From positions 4,900 to 68,899 of the forward strand of contig NZ_PJJM01000095.1 of the NCBI RefSeq assembly GCF_002929805.1: a stretch of 64,000 bases of DNA, given 5' to 3'. Under the pieces are notes generated by a model. It saw only the letters and a program-made list of their open reading frames with translations, made no database searches and was not told where the DNA came from. The position numbers and the translations under genes are program-made. The DNA comes from Cryobacterium sp. Y50 (GTDB lineage Bacteria > Actinomycetota > Actinomycetes > Actinomycetales > Microbacteriaceae). Below are positions 4,349-61,124 of the stretch, one piece after another. Numbering within the stretch: position 1 is the first letter of the stretch; each line of letters starts with the position of its first letter.

Positions 4349-4492
4349 GCAGGCGTCTCGCCCGACCAGCGAGGTGAGCCCCAGCCACTTGCCTTCAATA
4401 GAACGGATGCCGCCGGTCAGCCGGTCCTGCCACTGGCAGCAGCGGCGGGAACCATTGCGCTAGCATCCGTTTCAGTCGCTGACTCAAAGAAG

Positions 4493-4897
4493 GTGATTTA
4501 TCCGGCAGCCCTGACCGGCCACCTCGACCCCGTGCTCTCGCGCGGCCTGTGGCTGGTGAAATGGCTGCTGGCCGTTCCGCACCTCGTGCTGCTCACGGTG
4601 CTGGTCGGTGGAATGTCGACCTGGGCCTACCCGTGGCGCGGCGACGGCGGTTGGGACAATAGCGCGAACACCGATGGAAGCTCGCTGCTGGGCGTGCTCG
4701 TCGTCGTCGCCGGGGTTATTCTGCTGATAACCGGACGGTACCAACGGCCGCTGTTCAATTCCATCATGGGCGTCAACCGCTGGGTGTACCGCGTCATCAC
4801 CTACACAGCGCTGATGCGCGACGAATACCCGCCGTTCCGCCTGGACCAGGGCCCAACCGAGCCGATACCAGATCCGAACGAAGCCACCCAAGGCTGA
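4493..4897 (+). CDS. DUF4389 domain membrane protein (short form)
   Basis: The 134-residue product is recognisable as DUF4389: YPAALTGHLDPVLSRGLWLV at the start, two or three hydrophobic helices, then TGRYQRPLFNSIMGVNRWVY and RDEYPPFRLDQGP. The domain starts at the very first residues. The only start in frame is GTG 4493, and its AAGAAGG sequence abuts the start codon too closely to act as a normal ribosome site. This supports the view that the open frame is the downstream half of a longer gene whose 5' part lies at 4067-4348. Function of DUF4389 is unknown. Confidence 0.65.
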   Translation: MIYPAALTGHLDPVLSRGLWLVKWLLAVPHLVLLTVLVGGMSTWAYPWRGDGGWDNSANTDGSSLLGVLVVVAGVILLITGRYQRPLFNSIMGVNRWVYRVITYTALMRDEYPPFRLDQGPTEPIPDPNEATQG

Positions 4898-4909
4898 GTG
4901 GCGAAAGGT

Positions 4910-4957
4910 GCACATCGAGGTGCCGGGCCCGGGTTGGGGCCCGGCACCTCGATGTGC
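4910..4957. terminator. Perfect 21-bp stem hairpin
   Basis: Positions 4910-4930 (GCACATCGAGGTGCCGGGCCC) are exactly complementary to 4937-4957, with a 6-nt loop. It lies between the convergent DUF4389 gene and the alkyltransferase-like gene, so it can serve both strands. No T-run follows, as is common for actinobacterial terminators. Confidence 0.7.
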
Positions 4958-4994: not shown

Positions 4995-5330
4995 TTAGGC
5001 AGACGGTGACCAGCGCGCGGCGCGGTAATCGACGCGGTAGGCGGCATCCGCTTCTATGGTGCTGGCAGCGGCAGACCGCAGTAACGGCGTGTGCTCGGCC
5101 TCGTAGTGCGGCAGCGCCTGGGCCGCATGAGCGATTGGCGGATGCCCGCTGGCGCGAATTACGCGCCACCATGCCACGTCGGAGCCGTACCGGGCCATGA
5201 CCTGACCGACGGCACGGGCGGCGCGGGAACCCAGCTGCGCGGCCACACCACCATAGGTCATCACCCGGCCCGGCGGGATCGAATCGACTACGCCGAGCAC
5301 CCGGGAGACGAAGTCGTCGGGCTCACTCAC
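4995..5330 (-). CDS. Alkyltransferase-like protein (ATL), MGMT family
   Basis: The 111-residue protein has the DNA-binding domain of O6-alkylguanine alkyltransferases: IPPGRVMTYGGVA, GSRAARAVGQVMARYG (with the arginine-finger region near R39) and the active-site segment. In true transferases that segment reads PCHRV. Here it reads AWWRV (residues 53-57), so the alkyl-accepting Cys is Trp54. Such ATL proteins bind O6-alkylguanine without repairing it and hand the lesion to nucleotide excision repair (known for E. coli and yeast ATLs). The gene follows the GNAT gene on the same strand with 9 bp between them. Confidence 0.9.
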   Translation of the reverse strand: MSEPDDFVSRVLGVVDSIPPGRVMTYGGVAAQLGSRAARAVGQVMARYGSDVAWWRVIRASGHPPIAHAAQALPHYEAEHTPLLRSAAASTIEADAAYRVDYRAARWSPSA

Positions 5331-7476: not shown

Positions 7477-10400
7477 TTGGACACGCACGTGATCTCACAC
7501 TTCTGGCGAACCACACTCCCGCCCGAAAGCCGGCATCTCACCCCACATCATGCCCGAACAGCGATGGCGCTGTTCGTGACCAGCACCCTCGTCGCGGCCG
7601 GAGCCATGGTGGGCGTGACCGGCGCTGCCGCGGCCCCGATGGCCCCCGGCCTCGGGGGCATCATCGGCGCCGGCATTGGCCAGCCGGTGACCGATTTCAC
7701 CGCCGGCCGCTACATTGTGACCCTCGCCGACGAAGCCGTCGCCACCTACACCGGCGGAGTCGACGGTTTTGCCCCCACCACCCCGGGTGCCGGTGCCCGC
7801 CTCGACCCGCAGAGCCGCGCGTCGGAAACCTACTCGGACTACCTGGGAGACAAACAGAAGGCGGTAGCGGCATCCGTTGACGCCGTCATCGACTATTCGT
7901 ATACGCTCGCCCTCAACGCCTTCGCCGCCGAGCTCACAGCTCGGCAGGCAGCCAAGCTGTCGGCCGAGAAGGACGTAGTCGCGATCACGCCTGACGAACT
8001 CAAACACGTGACGGCGACCTCGTCGACAGACTTTATGGGACTGTCCGGTGATGACGGCGTCTGGGCGAAGACCGGCGGCGCAGAGACCGCGGGGGAGGGC
8101 GTCGTCATCGGCGTGCTCGACACCGGTCTGGCGCCGGAGAACCCCTCCTTCGCCGGCGACCCGCTCGGCACGACGCCTGGCGCGGATCCGTACCTCGATG
8201 GTGACGCGATCACCATGCAAAAGAGTGACGGCACCACCTTCACCGGCCAGTGCATTGCCGGCGTGCAGTTCGATGCCGCTGACTGCAGCACCAAAGTCGT
8301 CGGTGCACGGTACTTCGTGACCGGTTTCGGGGCCGACCGCATCGGCGGTGCTTCCATCGGCGAGTACCTCTCGCCGCGCGACGGCGACGGCCACGGATCG
8401 CACACCGCGAGCACCGCTGGCGGTAACCATGACGTGACGGCGACCATCGGTGGCCTCGCCTACGGGATCATCTCCGGTGTCGCCCCGGCCGCTAAGATCG
8501 CCGCCTACAAGGTGTGCTGGTCTGGTCCAGATTCCACGGTATCGACCGATGACGGCTGTGCTACGTCCGACCTGTTGGCCGGTATTAACCAGGCCGTTGC
8601 CGACAACGTCGACGTACTGAACTATTCGATCGGCGGCGGCGCGGCCGACACCACGGTCTCGCCGACCGACCAGGCCTTCCTCGGAGCGGCCGCCGCAGGC
8701 ATTTTCGTGGCGGCCTCGGCCGGAAACTCCGGCCCCGGCGCGTCCACGCTCGACAACGCGGCACCGTGGATCACCACGGTCGCGGCCAGCACCATCCCGG
8801 GCTATGAAGCCACCGCCACCCTTGGCGATGGAACGGCCTACGCGGGCGGGTCGATCTCGGTCGACCGCACCGACGGTGCAACGCCGTTGGAAGGTGCCCT
8901 CGTGCGCGGCGACCTCGTGGCCGTCGCCGGTCACGACAGCGCCGATGCGCTGCTGTGCGGCCCCGGTTCGCTCGATACCGCCGTCGTCGCTGGGTTGATC
9001 GTGATGTGCCAGCGCGGCGTCTACGATCGGGTGGCGAAATCCGCCGAGGTCTTGCGGGCTGGCGGTATCGGCATGCTTCTCGTGAACCGTGTGCCCGGCT
9101 CGGTCGACACCGACGAGCACACCGTACCCACTATTCACCTCGACGCTCCGTACTGGGATGCGACGTTTGCCTACGCGGGCAGCGCCGGGGCATCCGTTGT
9201 CTTCAGCAACGGAAATTCGACGGCCTACACGCCGCCGACACCGCAGGTGGCCGGGTTCTCCTCGCGCGGACCGGTGCAGGCCGACGGCAGCGACATTCTC
9301 AAGCCCGACGTGACCGCGCCCGGCGTGGCCATTCTCGCCGATGGTCCCAACGCCGACGGGGGCGAGCCGACCTGGCAGTTCCTCTCCGGCACGTCGATGT
9401 CGAGCCCGCAGATTGCGGGACTCGCCGCCCTCTACCTGGGCGAACGCCCGCTCGCGACCCCCGGCGAGATCAAGTCAGCGCTGATGACGAGCGCCTACGA
9501 CACCGTCGACTCCAACGGGGACACAGTCACCGACCCCTTCTCCCAGGGGGCCGGCCAGGTCGACCCGACGAAAATGTTCGAGCCCGGTCTGCTCTACCTC
9601 AACGGCACCGCGGACTGGTATTCCTATATTCAGGGCATCGGCTACGACGTCGGTGCCGAAGCGGTCGACCCCAGCAACCTCAACCTGGCCTCCATCGCGA
9701 TCGGCGCCTTGACCGCCTCGGAGACCCTCACCCGCACCGTCACGAGCACCGAGGCCGGCACGTTCACCGCCCAGCCGGTCACCGTTCCGGGCATCGACGC
9801 CGTCGTGTCGCCGACGACATTGAGCTTCGGCGCCGCCGGAGAATCAGCCAGCTACACCGTGACCTTCACCAGAACGGATGCCGCGCTCGACCAGTTCACG
9901 ACCGGCTCCCTCAACTGGGTGAGCGGCTCGGGAACCGTCGTGCACAGTCCCATCGCCATTCAGCCGGTGACCCTCGTGGCCCCAGCCACTGCGAACGGGA
10001 CCGGCGTTGACGGTTCGGTTGATGTGACGATCACCCCCGGAGCCACCGGGGATGTGGCGCTCAACTTGACCGGTCTCGCGGCCGGTCTGCACCAGTCCGA
10101 CCCGGCCGATCCGACCAGCCCGAACAGCGGATCCGGTGTCGCCGGCGACGAGTTCAGCTACCAGGTCGAGGTGCCGGAGGGAACCCAGCTGGCCCGCTTC
10201 GACCTCGACGCGGTCGACCAGAGTGCCGACCTCGACCTGATCGTGTATCGCCTGAGCGGTGACGGGGGAGACCCCGTGGCCGGCTGGCAGTCCGCGACCG
10301 GTTCGGCCGATGAGCTCATCGACCTCGCCAACCCTCCCGGTGGCTTCTACCAGGTGATCAACTCCGTCTACAGCGGAGCGACCGCGTTCAACGTGAACAC

Positions 10401-11370: not shown

Positions 11371-14300
11371 TTGGACACTCACGTGAGTTCTTTCTTCAGG
11401 CGTATGATTTTAGCGCCGGATTCAGCGCCGAACCCGGCGCCAACATCCCGCACACGCCGTCGCGCCACAATCGCGGCGGCCGTCACTTTCGCCCTGGTGG
11501 GCGCTTCAGCATTCGTCGGCGGTAACCTCCCGGCCAGTGCTGTCCCCGCAGTGACCGGCGTCACCGGCAGCATCGGTCTGCCCGGCGGCACTCGCATGGA
11601 CTTCACCGCTGGCCGCTACATCGTGACCCTCAGCGACGAGGCCGTTGCGCTGTATCGGGGTGGTGTCAATGGTTTCTCGGCGACGATGCCGGGTATTGGA
11701 GCCAAGCTGGACGCGCAAAGCCGCTCGGCCGAGACCTACCGGGACTATCTCAAGCGGGTGCAGGGTGAGGTGGCGGCATCCGTTGATGCGAGCGTGGGGT
11801 ATTCCTACACGCTTGCTCTGAACGGATTCTCGGCGCAACTGAGCGGCAAGCAGGCGGCCGCCCTCGCCGGGAAAAAGAATGTTGTATCGGTGGTCCCCGA
11901 TACGCTCAAACACCTGGTCGCCGAGTCGTCGACCGACTTTCTGCGGTTGAGCGGCCCGACCGGGGTCTGGTCCAAGCTGGGCGGCCCGAGCAAAGCCGGC
12001 AAGGGCGTGGTGATCGGGGTACTCGATTCGGGAATCGCCCCGGAGAACCCGTCATTCGCCGGCGAAACCCTCGGAACGACGCCCGGCGATGAGCCGTGGC
12101 TTGACGGAGACACAATCACCATGACCAAGGCCGACGGCAGCACCTTTACCGGGAGTTGCCAGACCGGCGAACAGTTCGCGGCGAGCGATTGCAGCACGAA
12201 ACTCGTCAGTGCGCGGTATTACCTCGACGGGTTTGGCGCCGATCAGATCGGCACCACCTCGATCGCCGAGTATGTTTCGCCGCGCGACGGCGACGGACAC
12301 GGTTCGCACACGGCCAGCACCGCCGGCGGCAACTTCGAGGTCGCCGCCAACATCAACGGCGTCGATTTCGGCTCCATCTCGGGTGTCGCTCCGGCCGCGA
12401 AAATCGCCGCCTACAAGGTGTGCTGGTCGGGCGCTGACCCCACGACAACGGATGATGATGGTTGCGCCGAATCCGACATTCTGAAAGCCATCGACCAGGC
12501 CATCTTCGACGGAGTCGACGTAATCAACTACTCCATCGGTGGCGGTCCGGCCCAAACCACGTTCTCGGCCTCTGACCAGGCGTTCCTGGGCGCTGCGGCG
12601 GCGGGAATCTTTGTGGCGGCATCCGCTGGAAACGCCGGCCCTGGTCCGTCGACCGTGGACAATGTCGCCCCGTGGATCACCACGGTCGCGGCGAGCACGA
12701 TTCCGGCCTTCGAAGCCACCGCCACCCTCGGTGACGGCTCGGCCTATGCCGGAGCGTCGATCACCGTCGACCGCACGCCGGTGGCGACGCCGCTGTTGGG
12801 TTCACTGGTACGGGCCGATCTCGTGTCGGTCGACGGCTTTGACCCGACCGACGCGCTGCTCTGTGCTCCGAACTCGCTCGATACGACGAAGGTAGCCGGC
12901 GCAATCGTATTCTGCGAGCGCGGCGTCTACGACCGAGTCGCCAAGTCGGCCGAGGTTTTGCGGGCCGGTGGCAGCGGAATGGTGCTGGTCAACCGCACTC
13001 CGCTCGACGTCGATCCGGATGAACACTCGGTGCCGAGCATCCACTTGGACGCTCCTGCTTTCGATCCGATCTTCGCCTATGCGGCGACGGACGGCGCGAC
13101 GGTCACATTCACCACCGACAATACGACCGCCGAGCAGACGCCGGTACCCCAGGTTGCCGGATTCTCCTCGCGCGGACCCTTGCTGGCCGACGGCGGTGAC
13201 CTGCTCAAGCCCGACATCGCCGCCCCCGGCGTTGGCATTCTCGCCGACGGCGCCAACGCGGCCTGGGATGACCCGACCTTCCAGTTTCTCTCGGGCACCT
13301 CGATGGCGAGTCCGCACATCACCGGCCTGGCCGCCCTGTACCTCGGCGTGCGCCCGCTTGCGACGCCCGCCGAGATCAAGTCGGTCATGATGACGACCGC
13401 CCTGGACACCGTCGATTCCGCCGGTGTGCGCGTGACCGACCCGTTCGCGCAGGGTGCCGGACAGGTCACCCCGTCGGCAATGGACTTTCCAGGGTTGATC
13501 TACCAGAGTGGTCCGGCCGACTGGCTGGCCTACCTGCAGGGAATCGGGTTCGATGCCGGCGTTTCGCCGATCGACGCGAGCAACCTGAACCTGGCGTCGA
13601 TCCAGATCGGTGCACTCACCGCGCCGGAGACGATCACCCGCACGGTGACGGCCGTACAGGTTGGCACTTACACCTCCACTCCGATCGAGATTGCCGGCAT
13701 TGATGCGGTCGTTTCTCCGGCCGAGATGACGTTCACGAGTGTCGGTGAGACACAGAGCTACACGGTGACGTTCACTCGAACGGATGCCCCGCTCGACGTG
13801 TTTGCCACCGGCTCGCTGGACTGGGGCTACGGCGATGGCGGCTCGGGTGACCCTGGCGACTTCTTCTCCATTGTGCACAGCCCGATCGCGGTTCGTCCGG
13901 TCACCGTCGTAGCCCCCACCCAGGTGAATGGCACCGGCGTGGACGGCACCGTCGACGTGACCGTCGCTCCCGGCGGATCAGAGCCGGTCGCGCTGAACCT
14001 CAGCGGCCTGGCCAACGGGGTGCACCAGAACAACGCCGACGACCCGTCCAGCCCGCACACCAATGCAGGCACGACCGGCGACCAGTTCGCCTACGAGATG
14101 GAAATCCAGGGCGACCGGCTGGCCCGGTTCGACCTTAACGCCGTGGATGATTCCACCGACCTCGACCTGTTCGTGCTGCTGCTCGACGGCCCGGGTGGCA
14201 AACCGATCGCCGGCTGGCAGTCGGCCACCGGGTCCGCCGATGAGCAGGTCGACCTGAGCGACCCGGAGGCCGGCTTTTATCAGGTCATCGTTGACGTGTT

Positions 14301-15182: not shown

Positions 15183-16421
15183 ATGCGACTGGCGGGATGG
15201 ATGCGGGGGCGACTCCGGGCATCCGCTGTACCCGAACCGGGTGTTACTCCGAAGCCGCGGCTCAACCGCGACGTGATTGTGCTCGGCGTCATCGCGTTTT
15301 TTGTGATGGTGGGCTTCGGCGTCGTCGTTCCGGTGTTGCCGGTCTACGTGCAGAGCTTCGGGGTTGGCAACCTCGAGGTCGGCGCGGTCGTCTCGGCATT
15401 CGCGCTCATGCGATTCGTGTTCAGCCCGGCGTGCGGTCGCCTGATCGACTGGGCCGGGGAACGCACCGTGCTCGCGATCGGAATCGGCATCGTCGCGCTC
15501 TCCAGCGGACTGGTCGGCCTGGCCGATAGCTATCTGCAACTGTTGCTGCTGCGCGGGGCCGGCGGCATCGGCTCGGCCATGTTCTCGGTGTCGGCGATGA
15601 CGTTGCTGCTGCGCACCGCCGAACCGGGCCGCCGAGCCCGCGCGATCGGCTTCTACCAGGGCGGATTTCTCATCGGCGGCATGGCTGGCCCGGCGATCGG
15701 CAGCTTGCTCGCGACCATCTCGCTGACGGCTCCGTTCTTCTTCTACGCCGGAACCCTTGGCGTGGCCGGCTTGGTCGGGCTGTTCTTACTGCGGTCGGGC
15801 GGGCCGGGCAGCGCGCTGGCCGGCGCCGACGCATCCGCTGTGCGGACGCCGTTTCGCACAGTACTGCGGGATGAACGCTTTCGGGCGGCCTGCCTTGCCA
15901 ACTTTGCGCAGGGCTGGACCTCGCTCGGGGTGCGCACGACGCTCATTCCGTTGTTTGTGGTCGTCGTGCTCGGTGGTACGAGCTCGTGGACCGGCATCGC
16001 CTTCGCTGCCGCGGCCGTTGCTCAGGCGCTCGCTCTCGCGCCGGCGGCCCGGTTCGTCGATACCGTCGGACGCAAACCGGCCATCATCGGGGCTTTCGCG
16101 GTGGCCGGAGTTGCGATTGTTGCCATCTCGTTCGCGCCGAACATCTGGGTGCTCGGTGCCCTGCTCTGCGTCTACGGGGTCGCCGCCGCGTTTATGGGAA
16201 CCGCGCCGGCCGCAGCGGTGGGCGACGCGGCCGGTGCGCGCGGGGGCCGGCCGGTCTCGGTGTTCTCCATGTGCGCGGATGCCGGTGCGATCGTTGGTCC
16301 GCTGGTCGCCGGTCTGCTCGTCGATACCTTCTCGTTCTCGGTCGGATTCGCCGTGGGCGGAGTGTTCCTGCTGATCGCCGCTGCTTATGCTCTGCGGATG
16401 CCGTCGGAACGTCGCGCCTGA
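15183..16421 (+). CDS. Major facilitator superfamily transporter
   Basis: The 412-residue protein has about 12 hydrophobic segments. A motif-A-like loop follows helix 2 (GRLIDWAGERTVLA) and its counterpart lies in the second half (ARFVDTVGRKPAIIG). The N-terminal helix LGVIAFFVMVGFGVVVPVLP resembles DHA1-type drug exporters. Proton-driven efflux is therefore likely, but the substrate is unknown. It stands alone between the protease pair and a separate + strand operon. G+C-rich repeats (CCCGGGCC) at 15096-15145 upstream may end protease transcription. Confidence 0.88.
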   Translation: MRLAGWMRGRLRASAVPEPGVTPKPRLNRDVIVLGVIAFFVMVGFGVVVPVLPVYVQSFGVGNLEVGAVVSAFALMRFVFSPACGRLIDWAGERTVLAIGIGIVALSSGLVGLADSYLQLLLLRGAGGIGSAMFSVSAMTLLLRTAEPGRRARAIGFYQGGFLIGGMAGPAIGSLLATISLTAPFFFYAGTLGVAGLVGLFLLRSGGPGSALAGADASAVRTPFRTVLRDERFRAACLANFAQGWTSLGVRTTLIPLFVVVVLGGTSSWTGIAFAAAAVAQALALAPAARFVDTVGRKPAIIGAFAVAGVAIVAISFAPNIWVLGALLCVYGVAAAFMGTAPAAAVGDAAGARGGRPVSVFSMCADAGAIVGPLVAGLLVDTFSFSVGFAVGGVFLLIAAAYALRMPSERRA

Positions 16422-49663: not shown

Positions 49664-50128
49664 CCCGCCCTTTTTTCCAGGCCCGGAAAGTGGGCCCATG
49701 ACCTATCGTGGGTCTGCTTCCGCAGGGTGAGCCCGGTGGGTTCACGCGCAGTCGCTCCGGCTTTCGGTCTCCAACACGCCGGCTCGCTGATCACGATTGC
49801 CCGACGATTGCCCGATGATTGCTCGACGATTGACCTACCGGCCCACGCAACCCGAAATCCCCTGTGCGCCGACGGCGAACATTCAACGACGGCCGCTTCG
49901 CTCGAATACACTGGAGTCTGGTCGGGCCGCAGTAATCCCGGGTTCCATTATTCGCCGCTTCGAGCGGCCTCGCGCCGAGAGGTGCTCTGCGGCCCGGCCT
50001 TTTGCGTTGACGCGGCGGGCGTGATGAGACCGGCATCCGGCATCCGTTTCGAAGCTTAATTCCCGCAAATACCAATCTGTTAGCGACTTCGCACCGAACC
50101 CTAGTCATGGAACGGGACGAGACCTGAC
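49664..50128. other. Intergenic stretch with an 11-bp tandem repeat
   Basis: No supported gene lies in these 465 bp. At 49795-49835 the unit GATTGCCCGAC is repeated about 3.7 times with small changes (GATTGCCCGAT, GATTGCTCGAC, GATTGACC). The part before sigK is A+T-richer (50056-50085) and probably holds its promoter. Two adjacent copies of the GCATCCG word lie at 50033-50045. Confidence 0.6.
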
Positions 50129-50725: not shown

Positions 50726-51606
50726 CCGGCCGCAACGAGCAGCACCCGGCCGACCTGGCCGGCGCCTACGCCCTGCACGCCCTCGACGCCGACGACACGG
50801 CCGCGTTCGAATCGCACCTCGCCGAATCAGAACGGGCGCGCATCGAAACGGCCGAGTTGAACGACACAGCGGTGGCCCTCGGCCTCGCCGTGGCCCCGGT
50901 CCAGCCCTCCGCTGCGCTCAAGGCCAACCTCATGTCGATGCTCGCGTCGACCCCGCAACTTGCGCCACTGCCGCGCGCTGTTGGCCCCGCCACAACGGAT
51001 GCCGCCACCGCCGTCTCCGAGACGACTCCCGTCGTTTCCCCGGTTACGTCGGGAACGGCGCCGTCCGGGCCGGTCACCGGCATCCGTTCTGGTGATGCGT
51101 CGAGCCCACACCGTTCGTCGGCGACCGAGCGTGCCAAGGCGCGCTGGTTCAAGCGGCCAGCGCTGTACTACCTGCTGGCCGCTGCGGCGGCGGCAGCCCT
51201 GTTCGTCGGCGGATCCTTGTTCGGCCAGACACTCAACAACGACGAATTTGAGTCGCAGCAGGCCGCCGGGCTCGCCCAGATCAACGCGGCGGATGACTCT
51301 CAGCGTGCCGCGACGACAACGGCCGAGGGGCAGGAAGCGACGCTGGTCTGGTCGAACAAGCTCGGAATCTCCGCCGTGCTTGTGGCCGACCTGCCCGTGC
51401 TGCCGAGCGATCAGGACTATCAGCTCTGGTACATCAACGGTGACGGCCCAGCCTCGGCTGGAACCTTCGACTCGACCGGCGATGGCCCCGCCTGGCGCGT
51501 GCTCGACGGCACCATGCACGCCGGCGACCAGGTCGGCATCACCGTTGAACCCAACGGTGGGTCCGACCAGCCCTCGAGCACCCCGATCGTCGCGTTTCAG
51601 AGTTAG
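50722..51606 (+). CDS. rskA: Anti-sigma-K factor RskA family protein
   Basis: The 294-residue protein has a cytoplasmic anti-sigma domain (HPADLAGAYALHALDADDTA), a Thr/Ser/Pro-rich stretch, one membrane helix (about 148-168, YYLLAAAAAAALFVGGSLFG) and an extracytoplasmic RskA domain (SNKLGISAVLVADLPVLPSD, YQLWYINGDGPASAGTF). It would hold SigK at the membrane and release it after regulated proteolysis, as in mycobacteria. ATG 50722 overlaps the sigK stop (ATGA). No HXXXCXXC zinc motif is seen, as expected for RskA. Confidence 0.9.
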   Translation: MTGRNEQHPADLAGAYALHALDADDTAAFESHLAESERARIETAELNDTAVALGLAVAPVQPSAALKANLMSMLASTPQLAPLPRAVGPATTDAATAVSETTPVVSPVTSGTAPSGPVTGIRSGDASSPHRSSATERAKARWFKRPALYYLLAAAAAAALFVGGSLFGQTLNNDEFESQQAAGLAQINAADDSQRAATTTAEGQEATLVWSNKLGISAVLVADLPVLPSDQDYQLWYINGDGPASAGTFDSTGDGPAWRVLDGTMHAGDQVGITVEPNGGSDQPSSTPIVAFQS

Positions 51607-51754: not shown

Positions 51755-52642
51755 ATGAGACTGCCCTTCACGTTGCTGATCGATCCCGTCCCCGCCGATT
51801 CATTGCAGCAGAACTTCGACGACACGTTCCACGAGATGGAATCCAGCGCCCCGGCGTTGCGGGTCGGCGAGCTGAGCACGCAGCGTGGCGATGGAATCTT
51901 CGAGACCCTCGCCGTCGTCGATGGGCATCCGCAGGAGGTTGAGCCGCACATCAGTCGGCTGCGCAACTCCGCGCGCATCTGCGATCTCCCGGTTCCAAAC
52001 GCCGAGCAGTGGCGCGCCGCGATCGCCTACGCCGCCCTGCGCATCCCGCAGCGGGGCGAGATCGCGCTCAAGTTCGTGCTCAGCCGCGGTGTCGAGCACG
52101 GCCCGGCGCCGACCGCTTGGCTGCACGCGGTCGCCGCGGCGGATTTCAGCGGCGTGCGCGCGACCGGCGTGCGCGTCGTGACCCTCGACCGCGGCTACCC
52201 GCGTGGTGTCGCCGAAAAGGCACCCTGGCTGCTGATGGGCGCCAAAACCCTTAGCTATGCGGTGAACATGGCCGCTATTCGTGAGGCCCACCGCCGCGGC
52301 GCCGACGACACCATCTTCGTCACCACCGATGGTTACGTCATGGAAGGTCCGACCTCGAGCGTCGTGCTGCGCAGCAACGGATCGTACGTCACGCCCGCCC
52401 CGAGCGGCGCGATTCTGCACGGAACCACGCAGCAGAGCATGTTCGACTATCTGCGCGGGCAGGGGGCTTCCGTCGAATACCGCGACGTCACGCTCGACGA
52501 ACTTCGCCAAGCGGATGCCGCCTGGCTCGTCTCCAGCGTGCGCCTCGCCGTGTCCGTGATCGCCCTGGACAGCGAGCCGTTCCCGGCAGACCAGCCGGTG
52601 ACCGAGGCCCTGAACGCGTACTTGTTGGCGCGGACGGCGTAG
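51755..52642 (+). CDS. pabC: Aminodeoxychorismate lyase / class IV aminotransferase
   Basis: A PLP fold-type IV protein of 295 residues with the phosphate-pocket RGDGIFETLAVVDG, the PLP Lys164 in LMGAKTLSYAVNMAAIREA and Glu197 in VMEGPTSSVV. Actinobacterial proteins of this kind are usually assigned to aminodeoxychorismate lyase (p-aminobenzoate for folate). Branched-chain or D-amino-acid aminotransferase activity cannot be excluded by eye. It stands alone; no pabA or pabB lies nearby. Confidence 0.8.
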   Translation: MRLPFTLLIDPVPADSLQQNFDDTFHEMESSAPALRVGELSTQRGDGIFETLAVVDGHPQEVEPHISRLRNSARICDLPVPNAEQWRAAIAYAALRIPQRGEIALKFVLSRGVEHGPAPTAWLHAVAAADFSGVRATGVRVVTLDRGYPRGVAEKAPWLLMGAKTLSYAVNMAAIREAHRRGADDTIFVTTDGYVMEGPTSSVVLRSNGSYVTPAPSGAILHGTTQQSMFDYLRGQGASVEYRDVTLDELRQADAAWLVSSVRLAVSVIALDSEPFPADQPVTEALNAYLLARTA

Positions 52643-52870: not shown

Positions 52871-54181
52871 ATGAGAATTTCTGTCATTGGATGTGGCTAC
52901 CTGGGCGCCGTACACGCGTCAGCTATGGCCGAGCTGGGGCACGATGTCGTCGGGATCGACGTCGACGCCGCCAAGATCGCTCAACTTGCCATCGGCAAAC
53001 CCCCGTTCTTTGAACCCGGACTTCCCGAGGTTCTGCGCAAGGCCGTGAACAGCGGCCGACTGCGATTCAGTACCGATATAGCGGATGCCGCCGGCTCGCA
53101 GGTGCACTTCATCGCCGTCGGCACGCCGCAGAAGCCCGGCAGCTACAGCGCCGACCTGCGTTATGTCGATGCGTCGATCGAGTCCCTCATCCCTCATCTG
53201 GCCGACGGCGACCTCGTCGTGGGCAAAAGCACCGTTCCGGTGGGGACCGCCGCCCGCCTGGCCGAGCTCATCGGAGCCGGTAGTGGCGCGTCGCTGGCCT
53301 GGAATCCGGAGTTTCTGCGCGAGGGATTCGCCGTGCAGGACACCATCAGCCCCGACCGTCTGGTCTACGGTGTCGCGCCGGGCGCGCCCGGCGCGCACGC
53401 GGTCAAGCTGCTCAACGAGATCTACGCCACGGCGCTCGCCGCGGACACCCCCCTGGTCATCACCGACTACGCCACGGCCGAGCTCGTCAAGGTCGCCGCG
53501 AACGCGTTTCTGGCGACCAAGATCAGCTTCATCAACGCCATGGCTGAGATCGCCGAGGTCACCGGTGCCGATGTCACCCAGCTAGCGGATGCCATCGGCT
53601 ACGACGGCCGCATCGGCCGCCGTTTTCTCGGCGCCGGCGTTGGATTCGGCGGCGGTTGCCTGCCCAAGGACATTCGCGCCTTCACCGCTCGCGCCGAAGA
53701 ACTGGGTCGTGGCGAGTCCGTGGCTTTTCTCAAGGAGATCGACAAAATTAACCTGCGTCGTCGCCAGCGGGTCGTCGACTTGACCACCGAGGCCCTCGGC
53801 AACACGGTCTACAACGCCAAGGTCGCGGTGCTCGGACTGAGCTTCAAGCCGCACTCCGACGACGTGCGCGACTCGCCGGCACTCGACGTGGCCGTGCAGC
53901 TGCGCGGTCTGGGAGCCGAAGTAGTGGCGACCGACCCGGAGGCCATCGCGAACTCGCGGGCACGGCATCCGCAGCTGCAGTATGAGGAGTCCCTCGAGAA
54001 CACCCTGCGGGGAGCGGATGCTGTCGTGCTCGTCACCGAGTGGCCCGAGTTTCGGCACCTCGACCCGGTCTGGGCGGGTTCACTCGTGAAAACGAAGACC
54101 GTGATCGACGGCCGCAACGCGCTCGACCCCGCCGTTTGGCGTGCCGCCGGGTGGACCTATCACGGGCTCGGGCGGCCGTAG
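52871..54181 (+). CDS. ugd: UDP-glucose 6-dehydrogenase
   Basis: It oxidises UDP-glucose twice to UDP-glucuronate for polysaccharide or envelope sugars. The 436 residues show the NAD fold at the start (ISVIGCGYLGAVHASAMAEL), GKSTVPVGTA, NPEFLREGFAVQDTISPDR, Lys207 (AELVKVAANAFLATKISF), the catalytic Cys263 (GFGGGCLPKDIRA) and the C-terminal FKPHSDDVRDSPAL. ATG 52871 follows an AGAGGGAT ribosome site; the open frame before it does not look coding. Confidence 0.94.
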   Translation: MRISVIGCGYLGAVHASAMAELGHDVVGIDVDAAKIAQLAIGKPPFFEPGLPEVLRKAVNSGRLRFSTDIADAAGSQVHFIAVGTPQKPGSYSADLRYVDASIESLIPHLADGDLVVGKSTVPVGTAARLAELIGAGSGASLAWNPEFLREGFAVQDTISPDRLVYGVAPGAPGAHAVKLLNEIYATALAADTPLVITDYATAELVKVAANAFLATKISFINAMAEIAEVTGADVTQLADAIGYDGRIGRRFLGAGVGFGGGCLPKDIRAFTARAEELGRGESVAFLKEIDKINLRRRQRVVDLTTEALGNTVYNAKVAVLGLSFKPHSDDVRDSPALDVAVQLRGLGAEVVATDPEAIANSRARHPQLQYEESLENTLRGADAVVLVTEWPEFRHLDPVWAGSLVKTKTVIDGRNALDPAVWRAAGWTYHGLGRP

Positions 54182-54254: not shown

Positions 54255-55661
54255 GTGCGACGGTGGCTGGCCAGGCCCGATGTGCTCATGGTAGCTGCGA
54301 CAGCGCCGACCTATGTGGCTACCAGGGAAGCGCTCACGGCGCTCTCCCCGCAAGATCTCACCGCCGTCCGTTTTCTCGCTGGCGCTGCCATTATCGGCGT
54401 CCATCTGCTCATCACTCGGCAGCGCCTCACCCTGCGGCGGCACGATATTCCGCGCATGCTCGCCGTCTCCCTCTGCGGCTACGCCGGCTACGGCATGCTG
54501 GTCAACCTCGGTCAGGCCACGGTCCCAGCGGGAACCACGAGCCTGCTGCTCAACATCTCGCCGGTGTTCGCGTTCATCCTCGGATACTTCGTGCTCGTGG
54601 AGCGCACCACCTGGCTTGGCTACCTCGGCATGGTCATCGCCGTCGGCGGCGTCATCGTCATCACCCTCGGCGGCGGGAGCGAGACCGGATTCAACGGCAA
54701 TGCCCTCCTCATCGTGGGTGCAGCCCTGCTCCTGTCCGTCTTTCTGATCGTGCAACAGCCGCTGTTTGCGCGGGTGCCTCCGATTGAAATGGCCTTTTGG
54801 GGCTGTGCCATCGGGGGTTTCACCGCACTGCCGACGGCCCGGTTCGACGTCGATCCGAGCCGGCTGACGGCATCCGTTTGGGTGGCGCTTCTCGTGCTCG
54901 TCGTGGTGAACACCGTGCTGGCCTACTACTTGTGGAATCTGACCCTCTCCCGCACGAGCGTGGCTGAGGGCGGTTCGCTGCTGCTCATCGTGCCGATATT
55001 TTCGCTGCTGCTCGGCTGGCTGCTGCTCAGCGAAGTGCCAACGATCACCGCGCTGGTCGGCGGCGGCGCGGCCCTCGTTGGGGTCGTCATGCTCTCGCGG
55101 GCGACGTCGCGGCGCAAGCAGGCGGGGCTCGGGCTGCTCACCGGAGCGATTCCGATCGTCGGTGTGCTCACCGGGGCGGTGCCGATCATCGGTCTACCGC
55201 GCGAGCACGAAGACGTGGCCGCCCTTAATCTGTCCGATGACGTGACGTTGCAGTTGCATGACATTGCGATCGAGGCAGCGGATGCCGTCGGCGCCCAGTT
55301 GGTCACCGTGTCACTCTGGCGAGAAGAATTCGACGATCTCGTGCGGGTGTACTCCAGCCGGCCGCACGTCTACCAGCTCGGTGGGGTCTCATCAGACCTG
55401 GACGCGAACTGGGTCGAGCAGTGCGTCATCGGGCAGAAGTCGCTTCTTTCGGATGACGAGGCTGGCGACCTTGACCACGAGGGAGTGCTGACCGCGCCCA
55501 ACCGGGCCGCCACCGTCAATGCCGTCATCGTCGACGACGCCGGATTTCTCGGCTGTATGAACTTTCTCGACGCGTCCGGCGCCTATACCGAGGCCAGCGT
55601 CGAACAGGCGAATATCTTCGCCGCCCGTCTGGCCCCTGTCTTGCGACACCTTTCGGCCTGA
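54255..55661 (+). CDS. EamA-family transporter fused to a C-terminal GAF-like domain
   Basis: The first 300 or so residues are a ten-helix EamA permease (NISPVFAFILGYFVLVERTT, NTVLAYYLWNLTLSRTSVAE). A hydrophobic linker with the repeat LTGAIPIVGVLTGAVPIIG follows. The last 140 residues form a soluble alpha/beta GAF-like domain (LHDIAIEAADAVGAQLVTVS, NAVIVDDAGFLGCMNFLDAS). Most EamA proteins end after helix 10, so a sensor-like tail is unusual and may gate transport or signal. GTG 54255 is the start. It follows ugd on the same strand by 73 bp. Confidence 0.8.
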   Translation: MRRWLARPDVLMVAATAPTYVATREALTALSPQDLTAVRFLAGAAIIGVHLLITRQRLTLRRHDIPRMLAVSLCGYAGYGMLVNLGQATVPAGTTSLLLNISPVFAFILGYFVLVERTTWLGYLGMVIAVGGVIVITLGGGSETGFNGNALLIVGAALLLSVFLIVQQPLFARVPPIEMAFWGCAIGGFTALPTARFDVDPSRLTASVWVALLVLVVVNTVLAYYLWNLTLSRTSVAEGGSLLLIVPIFSLLLGWLLLSEVPTITALVGGGAALVGVVMLSRATSRRKQAGLGLLTGAIPIVGVLTGAVPIIGLPREHEDVAALNLSDDVTLQLHDIAIEAADAVGAQLVTVSLWREEFDDLVRVYSSRPHVYQLGGVSSDLDANWVEQCVIGQKSLLSDDEAGDLDHEGVLTAPNRAATVNAVIVDDAGFLGCMNFLDASGAYTEASVEQANIFAARLAPVLRHLSA

Positions 55662-55734: not shown

Positions 55735-56883
55735 GTGCGCCAGCGTAAACTGGTGTCAATGTGGCTTCGGGGAGTGTTCGTGGCGGCCCTCGCAGCCCTT
55801 GCAGCTTGGGGCGTGCACACCGCTCTGCCCGCCATTCCGCTGCTCACTATCGCCGTCGTGTTGGGGATCGTCGTCGGCCAGATCCCCGCTGCGCGTCCCC
55901 TGCTCGTCGGAGCGCTCGCACCCGGCCTCGCGGTCGCTACCAAATCGTTCATGCAGCTCGGAATCGTGCTCCTCGGCCTCAAACTCAGCCTCGTCGACAT
56001 CGCCGCGCTCGGCTGGGTGACAATCGCGACCACGGTCGCGATTGTGCTCATGGCCTTCGCCGGTACTCTCGGACTCGGCCGCTGGTTCGGCCTGCCCGGT
56101 CATCAGCCCCTGCTCATCGCCACCGGATTCAGCATCTGCGGCGCCTCGGCAATCGGGGCCATGAGCGGCGTCGTCAAGGCGAAAGACGAGGAGACCGCCA
56201 CCCCGATTGCCCTGGTGACCCTGTGCGGAACCCTTGCGATCGCCGTGTTGCCGCTGTTGTGGCATCCGCTTGGGCTCAGCGCCCTGCAATTCGGACACTG
56301 GGTCGGCGCCGGCGTGCACGACGTCGGCCAGGTCGTCGCGACCGCACAAATCGCCGGCTCGGCCGCTCTGGCCGTCGCCCTCGTCGTCAAACTCACCCGC
56401 GTGCTCATGCTCGCCCCGATCGTGGCCGTCGCGTCTATAGTCGAGCGCCGTCGTCTCGGCGTGATCGAAGCGGATGCCGCCACTCCGGTCGACCCCGCGG
56501 GCGGCGACGTTGGCGTGTCTGGCCCAGGTTTCGCTGACCGCGCTTCCTCTGACTCACCTGCCGCAGAGCCCGGCGCCGGCGACCCAGCCGGGTCTGGCCC
56601 CGTCGCCCGAATCTCTTCGTCGACGAGGCCACCGATCGTTCCGCTGTTCGTCGCGGGGTTCATCGTCGCGATGCTGGTGCGTACGCTGATTCCGCTGCCC
56701 GTTGAGGTCCTCGAGACCACTGACCTGCTGCAAACCGCACTGCTGGCCATGGCGCTTTTTGCCCTCGGGGCGGCCGTCAATCTCGGCACGTTGCTGCGCA
56801 CGGGTGGCCGGGCACTGGCCGTCGGGCTGCTCTCCTGGTCTCTGATCGCCGCACTGGCCTTCGGTGCCGTGCAGCTTTTCTGA
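55735..56883 (+). CDS. YeiH family (UPF0324) putative sulfate exporter
   Basis: The protein is a roughly ten-helix membrane protein with the YeiH signatures SFMQLGIVLLGLKLSLVDI, ATGFSICGASAIGAMSGVVK, LCGTLAIAVLPLLWHPLGL and GAGVHDVGQVVATAQ. A loop of about 65 residues rich in Gly, Ala, Ser, Pro and Asp (about 236-300) is inserted before the last helices and is not typical of the family. GTG 55735 has an AGGAG 7 bp upstream; ATG 55759 is an alternative. The function of this family is tentative. Confidence 0.87.
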   Translation: MRQRKLVSMWLRGVFVAALAALAAWGVHTALPAIPLLTIAVVLGIVVGQIPAARPLLVGALAPGLAVATKSFMQLGIVLLGLKLSLVDIAALGWVTIATTVAIVLMAFAGTLGLGRWFGLPGHQPLLIATGFSICGASAIGAMSGVVKAKDEETATPIALVTLCGTLAIAVLPLLWHPLGLSALQFGHWVGAGVHDVGQVVATAQIAGSAALAVALVVKLTRVLMLAPIVAVASIVERRRLGVIEADAATPVDPAGGDVGVSGPGFADRASSDSPAAEPGAGDPAGSGPVARISSSTRPPIVPLFVAGFIVAMLVRTLIPLPVEVLETTDLLQTALLAMALFALGAAVNLGTLLRTGGRALAVGLLSWSLIAALAFGAVQLF

Positions 56884-57824: not shown

Positions 57825-59204
57825 TTATCTAGGCGGAATGTCGAACGAGAGCCGTTGCCCCGCAGCGAAGACCTCCTCGACCGCGAAGTCGTCACTCAGG
57901 AGCACGGCGTCGGCGGCGAATCCGGGAGCGAGCAGCCCGAGATCGTGCGCGCGGCCAATAGCGCGGGCCGGCGTCTCGGTCAGCGCGGTCACGGCCTCCG
58001 CGATCGGTATTCCTACCTCGAAGACTGCCCGCCGCAGTGCCGCATCGAGGGTCAGCGTCGACCCCGCTATCGCTCCGCAAACGGCTGCCGCCTCGTCGCG
58101 GGCAGACCCGATGACCGCGCCGCCCACGCGATCTACGACGCCGATAGTGCGATCGACCATGCGGTCTACAGTGCGGTCGACAGTGCGGTCAACGCTGCGG
58201 GCGTCGACGGCGAGCCGGGCGACTCCGTCGACCACGACCACCGCGAGCGACCCCAACCGATACTCGCCGTCGCCAAACCCGGTCGCGGCCATCGCGTCGG
58301 TCACCAGGGCGATGCGCCCGGGAGCCCCGGCGAAGGCGAGGCGCACCACCTCCGGATGCACGTGCACCCCATCGTTGATGATCTCGAGCGTGACCCCGCC
58401 CGACCGCATCGCTGCCACCACCGGGCCCGGCGCCCGGTGATGAATGCCGTGCATGGCGTTGAATGCGTGCGTGAGCACGGACGCACCCGCATTGAATGCG
58501 GCGCAGGCCTGGGAGTAGTCTGCGGCGCTGTGTCCGATCGCGACAGCGACCCCGGCGTCGACGAAGCGAGTAATGGCGGCCCCGGCGCCGGGCAGCTCGG
58601 GGGCGAGCGTGATCTGACGCAGGTACCCGTGGGAGGCGAGGAGCAGGCGATCGGTGGCTGCGGCATCCGCTGCCCGTAGCAGCGCCGGATCGTGCGCGCC
58701 GCGAAAAGCAGCGTCGAGGAACGGGCCCTCAAGGTGCGCGCCGAGAACGAGCGGGTCCGCTTCGGCGGCGGCGGCGATGATGCCGAGCCGGGATTCGAGG
58801 TCGAATAGCTGAGCGGTCACCAACGAGAGCACCGACCGGGTCGTGCCGTGCGCCCGATGCACGGCGAGAGCGGTGCGAATGCCCGACAAGCCGTCGTCGA
58901 AGGCGGCCCCGCCCGCTCCGTGGCAGTGAATATCGATGAAGCCCGGCGTCAGCCAGCGCCCGCGGGCATCGACGATCTCGGCAGCGGATGCCGCAGCGGG
59001 CGTCCCCCCGCCCCGCGTCGACACCGAAACGGTCGCGAAATCGGCCGCGGAGGCTGACTTCGAGGTCGAACCGACGAGACCACGCCAGCAATCGCCCGTG
59101 CCGACCGCTGACACGGTGTCGCTGGCGAACGCGACCCACGCATCGAGTGTCAGGGTACCTCCGGACACGAGCCGCGCCGAGTGGATTACCCGGGTCACGT
59201 TCAT
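57825..59204 (-). CDS. nagA: N-acetylglucosamine-6-phosphate deacetylase
   Basis: It removes acetate from GlcNAc-6-phosphate. Metal and substrate motifs are PGFIDIHCHGAGG (His93, His95), HLEGPFLD, AIGHSAADY, THAFNAMHG and VTDAMAATG. ATG 59204 has a GGGAGGCGTC ribosome site. At 459 residues it is longer than usual (about 380-400). Extra length comes from a Ser/Thr/Ala-rich stretch near residues 38-75 and a tandem VDRT repeat near residues 330-352 encoded by five 12-bp units. It is the last gene after the kinase and DeoR regulator. Confidence 0.92.
   Translation of the reverse strand: MNVTRVIHSARLVSGGTLTLDAWVAFASDTVSAVGTGDCWRGLVGSTSKSASAADFATVSVSTRGGGTPAAASAAEIVDARGRWLTPGFIDIHCHGAGGAAFDDGLSGIRTALAVHRAHGTTRSVLSLVTAQLFDLESRLGIIAAAAEADPLVLGAHLEGPFLDAAFRGAHDPALLRAADAAATDRLLLASHGYLRQITLAPELPGAGAAITRFVDAGVAVAIGHSAADYSQACAAFNAGASVLTHAFNAMHGIHHRAPGPVVAAMRSGGVTLEIINDGVHVHPEVVRLAFAGAPGRIALVTDAMAATGFGDGEYRLGSLAVVVVDGVARLAVDARSVDRTVDRTVDRMVDRTIGVVDRVGGAVIGSARDEAAAVCGAIAGSTLTLDAALRRAVFEVGIPIAEAVTALTETPARAIGRAHDLGLLAPGFAADAVLLSDDFAVEEVFAAGQRLSFDIPPR
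58147..58206. repeat. Five 12-bp tandem units inside nagA
   Basis: Units read GTGCGATCGACC, ATGCGGTCTACA, GTGCGGTCGACA, GTGCGGTCAACG and CTGCGGGCGTCG on the plus strand. The minus strand codes for a run of VDRT/VDRM-like tetrapeptides. The length is a multiple of three, so the frame is kept. Confidence 0.85.
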
Positions 59205-59298
59205 GACGCCTCCCGTCCGGTGAAATCGCCGTGAGCAAACCGGGCCGCGTCCAGGCCGTTGAGCAGAGACCCGCCGCGCCGCGCCGCGCACACCACGC

Positions 59299-60084
59299 TC
59301 ACGCGACAATCACCTCGAGCCCGGCCTCGGCGAAAGCGGCCAGCTGCTCGGCCGATATGCCGGCGTCGGTGATGAGCGCGCTGAACTGGTCGAGGGCGTT
59401 GAGGGCGGCGAAGGCTACACGTCCGATCTTGCTCGAATCCGCCACGAGCACCGCTCGGGTGGCCCGCCCGGCCATGAGGGTGTTGACGGCGGCTTCGCGC
59501 TCGTCGTTCACCGTGGCCCCGAGTACCGGGTCGATGCCGTTCACCCCGATGAACGCCAGATCGAGGCGCACCTGGGTGAGCACCGATTCGGCGTAGGCGC
59601 CGACCAGCTCGTAGGAGCGCGCGTGTACGACTCCGCCGGTCACCACGGTCTTGATCTGCGGCCGCATCGCGAGTTGCGCGGCAATATTGATCGCGTTCGT
59701 CACGACCGTGAGGTTGGCGTGCGGGCTGGCCTGCGCAATATCCGCGCGGGAACTCAGCACACCGGCAATTGCGGTACTGGTCGTGCCGCCGCAGAGCCCG
59801 ACGATATCGCCGCGGGTCACGAGTGCGCTCGCCGCCTGGGCGATCTGCAGTTTCTCGGGCGCATGCCGTTCCTGCTTGTAGCGTGCCGGCAGGTCGTAGG
59901 CGACGGATTGCCCGATCGCACCGCCGCGCGTGCGGGTGAGCAGCTGCTGCTCGGCGAGGGTATCGAGGTCCCGGCGCGCGGTCGCGGCAGACACTCCGAG
60001 CTTGGTGATGATGTCATCGACCTCAACCTGCCCCGAATCGGCGAGCAGGTCGAGCACGGCGGCGAGCCGTTCGGCGCGGTTCAT
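59299..60084 (-). CDS. DeoR/GlpR family transcriptional regulator (amino-sugar locus)
   Basis: The 261-residue protein has an N-terminal DeoR helix-turn-helix (NRAERLAAVLDLLADSGQVE, VSAATARRDLDTLAEQQLLT, RGGAIGQS) and a sugar-phosphate sensor domain (GLCGGTTSTAIAGVL, AFIGVNGIDPVLGATVNDER, VADSSKIGRVAFAAL). ATG 60084 overlaps the stop of the sugar kinase by 4 bp, and nagA follows after 94 bp. It probably represses amino-sugar genes until a phosphorylated sugar appears (inference). Confidence 0.9.
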   Translation of the reverse strand: MNRAERLAAVLDLLADSGQVEVDDIITKLGVSAATARRDLDTLAEQQLLTRTRGGAIGQSVAYDLPARYKQERHAPEKLQIAQAASALVTRGDIVGLCGGTTSTAIAGVLSSRADIAQASPHANLTVVTNAINIAAQLAMRPQIKTVVTGGVVHARSYELVGAYAESVLTQVRLDLAFIGVNGIDPVLGATVNDEREAAVNTLMAGRATRAVLVADSSKIGRVAFAALNALDQFSALITDAGISAEQLAAFAEAGLEVIVA

Positions 60085-61124
60085 GGTCGCTCGCTTTCGT
60101 GAAGGGTCGGATCATCAAGAGACGCTCGGGCGCCAGCAAATTGCGCGGACTGCGCGGTCGCTATGGTCGGGGAGTAGGCCGCTGCAGACGCCTCGACCTC
60201 CAATGCCCCGCGCGCCCGCAGCGCCGCCCCGAGTAACCCGGCGTTTTCGCCAAGCAACGCCGGCACGATAAGCGGATGCCGGTGAAAGCTCAGCAGCGCG
60301 TTCACCCGTTCCCGAAGCGGTTCGAACAGGGCAGGCCCGGCCTGAGCGAGCCCGCCGCCGATCACAATCGCCTCCGGCGCGAGCACTGCGGCGAGTTGGG
60401 CGATGGTCACCGCCAAGGCATCGAGCGCCTCGGTCCAGACCCGCTCGGCAGCCGGGTCGCCGACCGCCACACGGGCAAGCACGAATCGCGCGCCCGCCGG
60501 GGGCGTGCCGGTCAACAATCCGTAGCGGCGCGAAATGGCGCCGGCGGAGGCGAGTGTTTCGAGGCATCCGTTCGCGCCGCACGCGCACGGCAGGCCGTGC
60601 GGCTCGACGATCGAGTGTCCGAGCTCGCCGGCGAACCCACCGGCGCTGTGTGGACGGCCGCCGAGAAACAGCGAGCAGGAGAGCCCGGTGCCGATCACGA
60701 TAACGATTACATCGGAGAATCCGTGCGCGGCTCCGAGCGCGAACTCGGCCGCGCCGGCCGCCCGCGCGTCGTGTGAGAAGGAGGCTGGCAGCCCCAGCCG
60801 CGCACCGGCCAGTGTCTGAAACGGAATTTCGGTCCAGTTCAGATTGACGGCGCGGTGCACGATTCCGACGGAGTCGTCGATGATTCCGGGGGCGATCAGG
60901 CCGACCGCCTGCGGGGCGACGCGCGGAAAATTACTGATCAGGGCGTCGGCGAGCTGTTGCACCTGGTCGAGTACGGCATCCGCTGTGCCGTCGGGCGATA
61001 CCGCGGTCGGGGCCCGGCGCACCCCGATCAGGTTGCCATCTGCGTCGACCAGGGCGCCCTTAATGTCGGTGCCGCCGATGTCGAACGCGAGCACGGGGGC
61101 GCCGGGCCCAAGTAGAGGGGTCAT
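60081..61124 (-). CDS. nagK: ROK family sugar kinase (probable N-acetylglucosamine kinase)
   Basis: A ROK kinase of 347 residues: ATP loop LAFDIGGTDIKGALVDADG at the start, VIVIGTGLSCSLFLGGRPH, and the ROK zinc signature CACGANGCLETLASAG with HS in GELGHSIVEPHG. The neighbours nagA, nagB and DeoR suggest GlcNAc or glucosamine as substrate; sequence alone does not separate this from glucokinase. ATG 61124 is chosen because the ATP loop starts 12 residues later. Its stop overlaps the DeoR start (ATGA). Confidence 0.87.
   Translation of the reverse strand: MTPLLGPGAPVLAFDIGGTDIKGALVDADGNLIGVRRAPTAVSPDGTADAVLDQVQQLADALISNFPRVAPQAVGLIAPGIIDDSVGIVHRAVNLNWTEIPFQTLAGARLGLPASFSHDARAAGAAEFALGAAHGFSDVIVIVIGTGLSCSLFLGGRPHSAGGFAGELGHSIVEPHGLPCACGANGCLETLASAGAISRRYGLLTGTPPAGARFVLARVAVGDPAAERVWTEALDALAVTIAQLAAVLAPEAIVIGGGLAQAGPALFEPLRERVNALLSFHRHPLIVPALLGENAGLLGAALRARGALEVEASAAAYSPTIATAQSAQFAGARASLDDPTLHESERP

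Follow-up and report, generated by a model that had tools for sequence, protein, structure and literature searches.

An abundant, conserved genomic word in Cryobacterium and other Microbacteriaceae that may serve as a DNA-uptake tag

The 64,000-nucleotide stretch of Cryobacterium sp. Y50 DNA considered here (the window) carries, among other genes, mrpA and glyA, and from position 4404 onward it is marked on both strands by a short word, GCATCCG, which is the subject of this work. The host is a member of the Microbacteriaceae, a family known from soil and glaciers. With MrpA of the window as query, close matches (up to 96% identity) came from Cryobacterium and remoter ones from Herbiconiux and Subtercola, which places the window in Cryobacterium; among the matches listed in a plasmid search with MrpA, none came from this family. 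We counted 69 copies of GCATCCG (39 plus, 30 minus) where an order-2 Markov model expects 17.6. The first-pass annotation of this DNA had put the number at about 60, on both strands and several times above what composition predicts; the excess and the presence on both strands were borne out, the count itself was too low, and its 11 example coordinates proved correct to within 0–4 bases. It had also stated that most copies extend to GCATCCG(C/T)T, as do 47 of the 69 (CT in 24, TT in 23), and the 8-mer GGCATCCG occurs 43 times against 5.5 expected. The hairpin stems it had described were recovered as the pairs 26395/26418 and 30893/30921, and no copy was found at a third place that it named, 11174. 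The copies are listed below with strand, the two bases that follow GCATCCG and, as x/y, the pairwise comparisons that keep the 7-mer within clade A, a Cryobacterium clade (86% mean identity) of which 19 loci, the window among them, were aligned pairwise.

1..4403, no strand: word-free left end; the run goes on for another 4,899 bp, up to the start of the contig, and that part holds IS110 and an rve integrase
4404..4410, minus: then TT; first copy in the window
4463..4469, plus: then TT
5044..5050, plus: then CT
5139..5145, minus: then CC
7870..7876, plus: then TT
9190..9196, plus: then TT; 0/4
9875..9881, minus: then TT; 11/12
11776..11782, plus: then TT; 5/5
12619..12625, plus: then CT; 1/6
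13781..13787, minus: then TT; 13/14
15219..15225, plus: then CT; 11/12
15831..15837, plus: then CT; 14/15
16276..16282, minus: then CG; 15/16
16395..16401, minus: then CA; 15/15
17080..17086, plus: then TT; 10/13
18032..18038, plus: then CT; 9/11
19214..19220, plus: then TT; 17/17
19679..19685, minus: then CT; 16/16
21980..21986, minus: then TT; 14/14
24245..24251, plus: then TT; inside mrpA; 18/18
26395..26401, minus: then TT; left arm of a hairpin pair; 8/15
26418..26424, plus: then CT; right arm of the pair with 26395; 13/14
27041..27047, minus: then TT; 17/18
28236..28242, plus: then TT; 18/18
29444..29450, plus: then CT; 11/13
30893..30899, minus: then TT; left arm of the hairpin directly past the glyA open reading frame (ORF); 12/13
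30921..30927, plus: then CC; right arm of the post-glyA hairpin; 10/10
31129..31135, plus: then AC; off-consensus, not conserved; 0/15
32163..32169, plus: then AG
32366..32372, minus: then TC; 11/12
33793..33799, plus: then TC; 1/1
34814..34820, plus: then CA; 1/1
35465..35471, minus: then CC; 1/1
36269..36275, minus: then CA
37832..37838, plus: then CT; 5/6
39274..39280, minus: then CA; 5/5
40253..40259, plus: then TC
41318..41324, plus: then TA
41752..41758, plus: then TC
41789..41795, minus: then AG
43752..43758, minus: then CT
43849..43855, plus: then CT
46173..46179, plus: then GT
46424..46430, minus: then TT
47511..47517, minus: then TT
47826..47832, plus: then CT
48486..48492, plus: then CT
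49356..49362, minus: then TT
50033..50039, plus: then GC; first of a direct tandem pair
50040..50046, plus: then TT; second of the direct tandem pair
50996..51002, minus: then TT
51080..51086, plus: then TT
51925..51931, plus: then CA
52512..52518, minus: then CT
53082..53088, minus: then CT
53586..53592, minus: then CT
53965..53971, plus: then CA
54015..54021, minus: then CT
54870..54876, plus: then TT
55279..55285, minus: then CT
56262..56268, plus: then CT
56471..56477, minus: then CT
58353..58359, minus: then GA
58663..58669, plus: then CT
58985..58991, minus: then CT
60273..60279, minus: then CT
60564..60570, plus: then TT
60976..60982, plus: then CT
62729..62735, plus: then AC

Over the whole Y50 genome (4.40 Mb in 105 contigs) GCATCCGYT occurs 1,951 times (978 plus, 973 minus), or once per ~2.3 kb, against 148 occurrences (76 plus, 72 minus) of a reversed-pattern control; the consensus in this strain is (CG)GCATCCGYT, and an unbiased word scan of the species returned CGGCATCCGYT. 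All 57 Cryobacterium genomes examined carried the 9-mer above its control, at 353 to 2,198 copies. Beyond the genus we used samples of the family and the order, both drawn from larger groups. Among 150 Microbacteriaceae genomes (85 genera) GGCATCCG reached at least 3 times its control in 102, at least 5 times in 76 and at least 10 times in 39, and lay below 2 times in 24; enrichment ranged from 0.4 (a depletion) to 39-fold, and the richest genera carry about one word per kilobase. In the order sample of 198 genomes, 13 of the 14 family members reached 5-fold for GGCATCCG, as did 0 of the 184 genomes outside the Microbacteriaceae (maximum 3.9, median 1.5, five at 3 or above). The literature searched held no match to the literal word, nor to "uptake sequence" together with Microbacteriaceae, and no such word in this family was reported among the matches listed; most subscription papers lay outside the search, which makes this weak evidence of absence.

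Such an excess might come from chance, base composition, or codon or dipeptide usage, and one figure speaks for this: a maximal-order Markov model, built from 6-mers, expects 54.7 of the 69 window copies, so that much of the excess of GCATCCG already sits in its overlapping 6-mers. We predicted genes with a simple ORF scorer of our own rather than a standard annotator, and shuffled synonymous codons within each gene of eight sequence sets, which keeps both the proteins and the codon usage. The 9-mer was found 38 times in the genes of the window against 3.0 after shuffling, and 156 times against 12.5 in those of a relative (G017; such handles denote genomes, with L and C for loci and contigs), and it exceeded the shuffled expectation in all six reading frames, the codon-frame check that the first-pass annotation had proposed. 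Either GCATCCG or GGCATCC was the top-ranked 7-mer by this test in seven of the eight sets, including low-copy Cryobacterium species; in G211, GCATCCG ranked fifth and GGCATCC second. GCATCCG was also in excess between genes (15 versus 2.4 expected in the window, 47 versus 10.9 in G017, 24 versus 9.9 in low-copy Cryobacterium), and in G211 the word is four times as dense between genes as within them. The annotation had named dipeptide and codon usage as what might explain the count, and had allowed that enrichment might be lacking outside coding DNA; neither is the case. Codon and dipeptide usage are rejected by these shuffles together with the synonymous conservation described below, and we give a chance or compositional origin next to no probability. 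In the window 54 of the 69 copies lie in coding DNA, with 30 in one orientation relative to the gene and 24 in the other, a near-equality that argues against a signal read at the level of RNA.

The word is also conserved where the protein leaves a choice. In clade A, codons whose amino acid is kept were retained far more often inside the word than elsewhere: 93.5% versus 21.7% for the rare codon GCA, 96.7% versus 38.6% for GAT, 93.8% versus 25.3% for CAT and 95.3% versus 59.4% for TCC, the exception being ATC (83.7% versus 88.7%). The whole 7-mer was kept in 282 of 330 comparisons at window sites between 9 and 40 kb, whereas control 7-mers matched for G+C were kept in 39.2%; the poorly kept copies include the off-consensus one at 31129 (0/15) and those at 9190 (0/4) and 12619 (1/6). 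Ranked among 7-mers with at least 25 sites, GCATCCG was the most conserved of 3,518 words in clade A, the most conserved of 3,038 in clade B, a second, low-copy Cryobacterium clade, and tenth of 1,127 in a Herbiconiux/Subtercola group that includes one locus named just Microbacteriaceae. Because the same species recur in the pairwise counts, these are not independent, and ranks and contrasts weigh more than z-scores. How well a copy is conserved varies with the two bases after it: 0.873 for YT, 0.771 for YV, 0.627 for RV and 0.369 for RT. The synonymous-shuffle excess and the synonymous conservation back the earlier suggestion of a selected genomic word, and support the view that the word is under selection; given the strength of this conservation, it needs explaining even if its function is not uptake.

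Across the 150 family genomes the word falls 71,841 times on one strand and 71,938 times on the other. In two genomes, each sampled as 20 stretches placed every 175–185 kb, we found no replichore skew beyond chance for any placement of origin and terminus (best skew fractions 0.536 and 0.555; null medians 0.546 and 0.555). A skew relative to origin and terminus was among the checks proposed at first pass; its absence in these genomes disfavours the segregation signal listed there, and segregation polarity is rejected on this ground. Binding by a protein of the nucleoid, of chromosome organisation or of segregation would suit a genome-wide, conserved word with the density seen in the richest genera; however, it should be set against the lack of polarity toward the terminus and against the 0.4- to 39-fold range within one family, which is hard to reconcile with a housekeeping role in chromosome architecture, and we consider it rather improbable. 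Neighbouring copies within 40 bp form 72 pairs, 59 inverted and 13 on the same strand, and 38 of the 72 are of the type CGGATGC-loop-GCATCCG. Some of these 38 are strong hairpins beside the 3' ends of genes, as after glyA in the window, and intergenic pairs with strong hairpins within ~40 bases of a 3' end (window 30893/30921, L086:334, L125:1788, L158:9117) would agree with a transcription-terminator element, in which paired copies form hairpins at gene ends. Most copies, however, are single and lie inside genes, and many single window sites are as conserved in clade A as paired ones, which leaves a terminator role very improbable.

Unbiased word scans uncovered variants of the word in other genera (consensus strings of more than 10 bases being composites of overlapping top words): GCGGCATCCG in G134, GGCATCCG(T) in G128, GCGGCATCCGTC in G172 and CCGCGGCATCCGTC in G211. 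Two lineages without the word carry another dominant one, GGATCCTGC in G118 and CACCGAT in G081. In G118 (L214-L218, L224-L233), which lacks GGCATCCG, the dominant word takes the form GGATCCTGC or the palindrome GCAGGATCCTGC; GATCCTGC occurs there 133 times in genes against 19.9 expected, reaches twice that density between genes, and divides 86:85 between the strands. G081 (L209-L213, L234-L243) is a small genome of 1.43 Mb in which CACCGAT(A/G) is strongly over-represented in genes (CACCGAT 236 versus 69.9 expected, strands 127:123). Three further word-poor genomes (G180, G166 and G122) showed no clear replacement word; G122 has a weak CGATCCGC (20 versus 7.0). In G166 (L160-L164) we also noted a palindrome, GATCCGGATC, counted 14 times over both strands in 100 kb against 0.2 expected.

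The left end of the window is set apart by the absence of the word. The first-pass annotation had reported none in the first 4.4 kb, which it took as an insertion sequence (IS)-bearing patch, acquired or relaxed. No copy lies in 1-4403 nor in the 4,899 contig bases to its left, a word-free run of 9,302 bp (Poisson P 2e-5, given the density in the remainder) where the largest other gap in the window is 2,731 bp, and the G+C content of this end is 0.612 versus 0.658. The IS elements belong to the adjoining DNA, an IS110 transposase and an rve integrase lying in the left flank outside the window, whereas the seven ORFs scanned within 1-4.4 kb included no transposase, with matches to a WapI-like immunity protein (2774-3244 minus) and, weakly, to EamA. 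The word-free run, the lower G+C and the flanking IS110 and rve genes fit a left end of recently acquired DNA, as first proposed. Phage and prophage DNA, to which this idea was also applied, gave mixed results. A TerL_ATPase match was found in 3 of the 57 Cryobacterium genomes, which suggests that prophages of this type are scarce in Cryobacterium. Elsewhere in the window, at 7477-11157 and 11302-15075 (plus), two large subtilases stand side by side, both with Ig-like C-terminal domains.

Recombination and repair signals were also among the functions suggested at first pass. Chi sites are typically words that are selected, very frequent and specific to a lineage; they are read on one strand and are usually polar. 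A short, over-represented, family-wide double-stranded word with dialects would be compatible with a Chi-like signal that AdnAB, AddAB or some other helicase that resects DNA ends recognises within the cell. However, RecC was found in 0 of the 150 family genomes (AddAB and AdnAB were not searched for), and the two genomes analysed for skew gave none; the RecBCD/Chi form is rejected on these grounds. AdnAB is reported not to obey Chi, and we regard a Chi-like signal in the wider sense as unlikely. Alternatively, the word could reflect DNA modification or patch repair of the HIP1 or Vsr kind, in which a mutational or conversion bias, not selection for uptake, would maintain it. Strand symmetry, independence of position and occurrence in coding and non-coding DNA would agree with this, and a singular genome-wide excess in both kinds of DNA is shared with HIP1 of cyanobacteria. 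HIP1, however, is a palindromic octamer and the Microbacteriaceae word is not a palindrome; its dialect extensions have graded edges; and Vsr-type repair should deplete the C-to-T neighbours, which stand at 0.97 (GTATCCG), 1.02 (GCATTCG) and 1.01 (GCATCTG) of expectation, so that patch repair is rejected. GCCTCCG (0.63) and GCGTCCG (0.54) are low, which we attribute to synonymous codons being pulled into the word, and neighbours of the 9-mer, with expectations of 1-4, gave a mixed picture (GCATTCGCT 0 versus 3.3, GTATCCGCT 6 versus 3.5). A modification or repair word of this kind thus appears improbable.

Genes for DNA uptake are present in the family. ComEC was found in 148 and ComEA in 147 of the 150 genomes; being near-universal they cannot explain which genomes carry the word, and as predictors of it they offer no variation to use. 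In the Y50 genome comEA and comEC form an operon and are followed by a gene for DNA polymerase III delta; PilM was matched on two contigs, and one cluster encodes PilO, two prepilin-like proteins and an assembly ATPase. The genome encodes five confident T2SSE-type ATPases in all. For two of them the TadA family gave the best-fitting model, with one score above the cut-off and the other below it; both precede T2SSF-type genes, in one case with TadE also present. Seemingly there are two type-IV-pilus-like clusters in this genome (G000), L188 (C60:65001-84405) and L201 (C72:1-16000), one of which adjoins the genes for ribosomal proteins S12 and S7, and two Tad-type loci, L202 and L203. PilM, a type IV pilus marker, occurs in about half of the family genomes (77 of 150 at E <= 0.001). 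In five Cryobacterium genomes (G002, G006, G014, G051, G060) the ComEC match starts at profile position 21-27 in frames of 558-576 residues, shorter than most, and these may be split or frame-shifted genes. Passages of a study of activated sludge (PMC10257627) report that a Microbacterium had been transformed with free plasmid DNA.

A function absent from the first-pass list, DNA uptake, appears to fit best of those we considered, and we put at roughly 0.6 the probability that the word is a tag of self DNA, of the kind known as DNA uptake sequences (DUS) or uptake signal sequences (USS). The parts of the DUS and USS literature drawn on here describe words with no orientation bias, ~10% of them in inverted repeats, a non-coding excess, and dialects around a conserved core (PMC1939737, PMC3630211). 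On that description, the Microbacteriaceae word resembles DUS/USS in its strand symmetry, its occurrence both within and between genes, its graded synonymous conservation, its excess of inverted pairs, and its dialects and replacement. Here too a 9- to 12-base word is found at hundreds to thousands of copies far above expectation, in many gene frames and between genes (GGCATCCG between the genes of low-copy Cryobacterium being the exception), with dialects around a shared core; uptake genes are present and do not discriminate. We infer that the word acts in uptake, through a receptor, and that uptake is what maintains it. A surface pilus or a pilin-associated receptor of the competence machinery would bind the double-stranded word in free DNA, and the word-bearing DNA would be drawn in, passed to ComEA, taken through ComEC and then recombined. 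Alleles that carry the word would be taken up more often, so that it would spread and persist at thousands of sites in either orientation, and lineage dialects around a shared core would restrict exchange to kin, foreign DNA initially being without the word.

Several observations weigh against the self-tag proposal. The com genes are also present in word-poor genomes, their presence not tracking the word; PilM tracks it weakly (p 1e-4 over all genomes and.047 in those of at least 2.3 Mb, computed with 76 genomes over the cut-off and with relatedness ignored), and no PilM match was found in several genera where the word is most abundant (G128, G211, G149, G176). Other words, such as AGCAGCA and CGAGCAC, also exceed the shuffled expectation, although in Cryobacterium they are far less conserved than GCATCCG. 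Between the genes of low-copy Cryobacterium GGCATCCG is not enriched (3 versus 3.0), and in G081 CACCGAT is rarer between genes than within them. Many inverted pairs sit inside genes, 15 of G118's 16 head-to-head pairs prove to be a single overlapping palindrome, GCAGGATCCTGC, and even spacing is clear in the window only (p.003, one of six sets; the other five p.057-.58). Depletion in mobile DNA is mixed: a phage-like stretch of G007 is low in the word, a TerL stretch of G013 has a normal 7-mer and a low 9-mer density, 7-mer density does not differ between core and rare DNA (1.13 and 1.12 per kb; 0.74 and 0.47 for the 9-mer), three Microbacterium phages jointly hold 13 copies of GGCATCCG against 6.9 expected, and one of them has 17 of GGCATCC against 2.7. 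The plasmid of the activated-sludge study was synthetic, and a requirement for a word is no part of the passages of that study (PMC10257627); as that plasmid was foreign, the word, if it matters, need not be an absolute requirement.

Extending the self-tag proposal to the family, we speculate that the Microbacteriaceae may have an uptake language of their own: transformation gated by sequence, in dialects (GGCATCCGYT, GCGGCATCCGTC, GGATCCTGC, CACCGATR and others) that would have arisen separately from the proteobacterial DUS/USS, would in some lineages have given way altogether to other words, and would act as breeding barriers. We hold this broader proposal to be evenly balanced between right and wrong. 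Two proteobacterial families are known to gate uptake by an abundant genomic word; if our proposal is true, this would be a third, independent case, in Gram-positive Actinobacteria and in a family sampled in 85 genera, and one could compare across the tree how uptake words originate, drift and are replaced. It would also point to natural competence in many Microbacteriaceae species, and word-carrying donor DNA would offer a practical handle for genetics in Microbacterium, Cryobacterium and their relatives.

Besides Chi and HIP1, three known systems invite comparison. Under the GTDB scheme Micrococcus luteus belongs to the same order as the Microbacteriaceae. Passages of work on this actinobacterium (PMC4322843) describe comEA and comEC and a transformation that needs Tad (Flp) pili; com genes and Tad-type pilus genes likewise occur together in Y50, whereas that paper nowhere uses the term "uptake sequence". 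The Pasteurellaceae USS, as far as the portions of PMC1939737 drawn on here describe it, is also a 9-base word on both strands, in genes and between them, with a minority of copies as inverted repeats and no orientation bias; it belongs to a different lineage, and no A/T tracts were seen in the flanks of the Microbacteriaceae word. The Neisseriaceae DUS differs in its core, CTG, where most Microbacteriaceae dialects share ATCC(G), and in its host, the present word belonging to high-G+C Actinobacteria with a Gram-positive envelope. On the sections of PMC3630211 used here, the Neisseriaceae DUS is nevertheless alike in being a non-palindromic word of ~10 bases, present in thousands of copies and at the top of unbiased word scans, with dialects around a conserved core and with some family members that do without the word.

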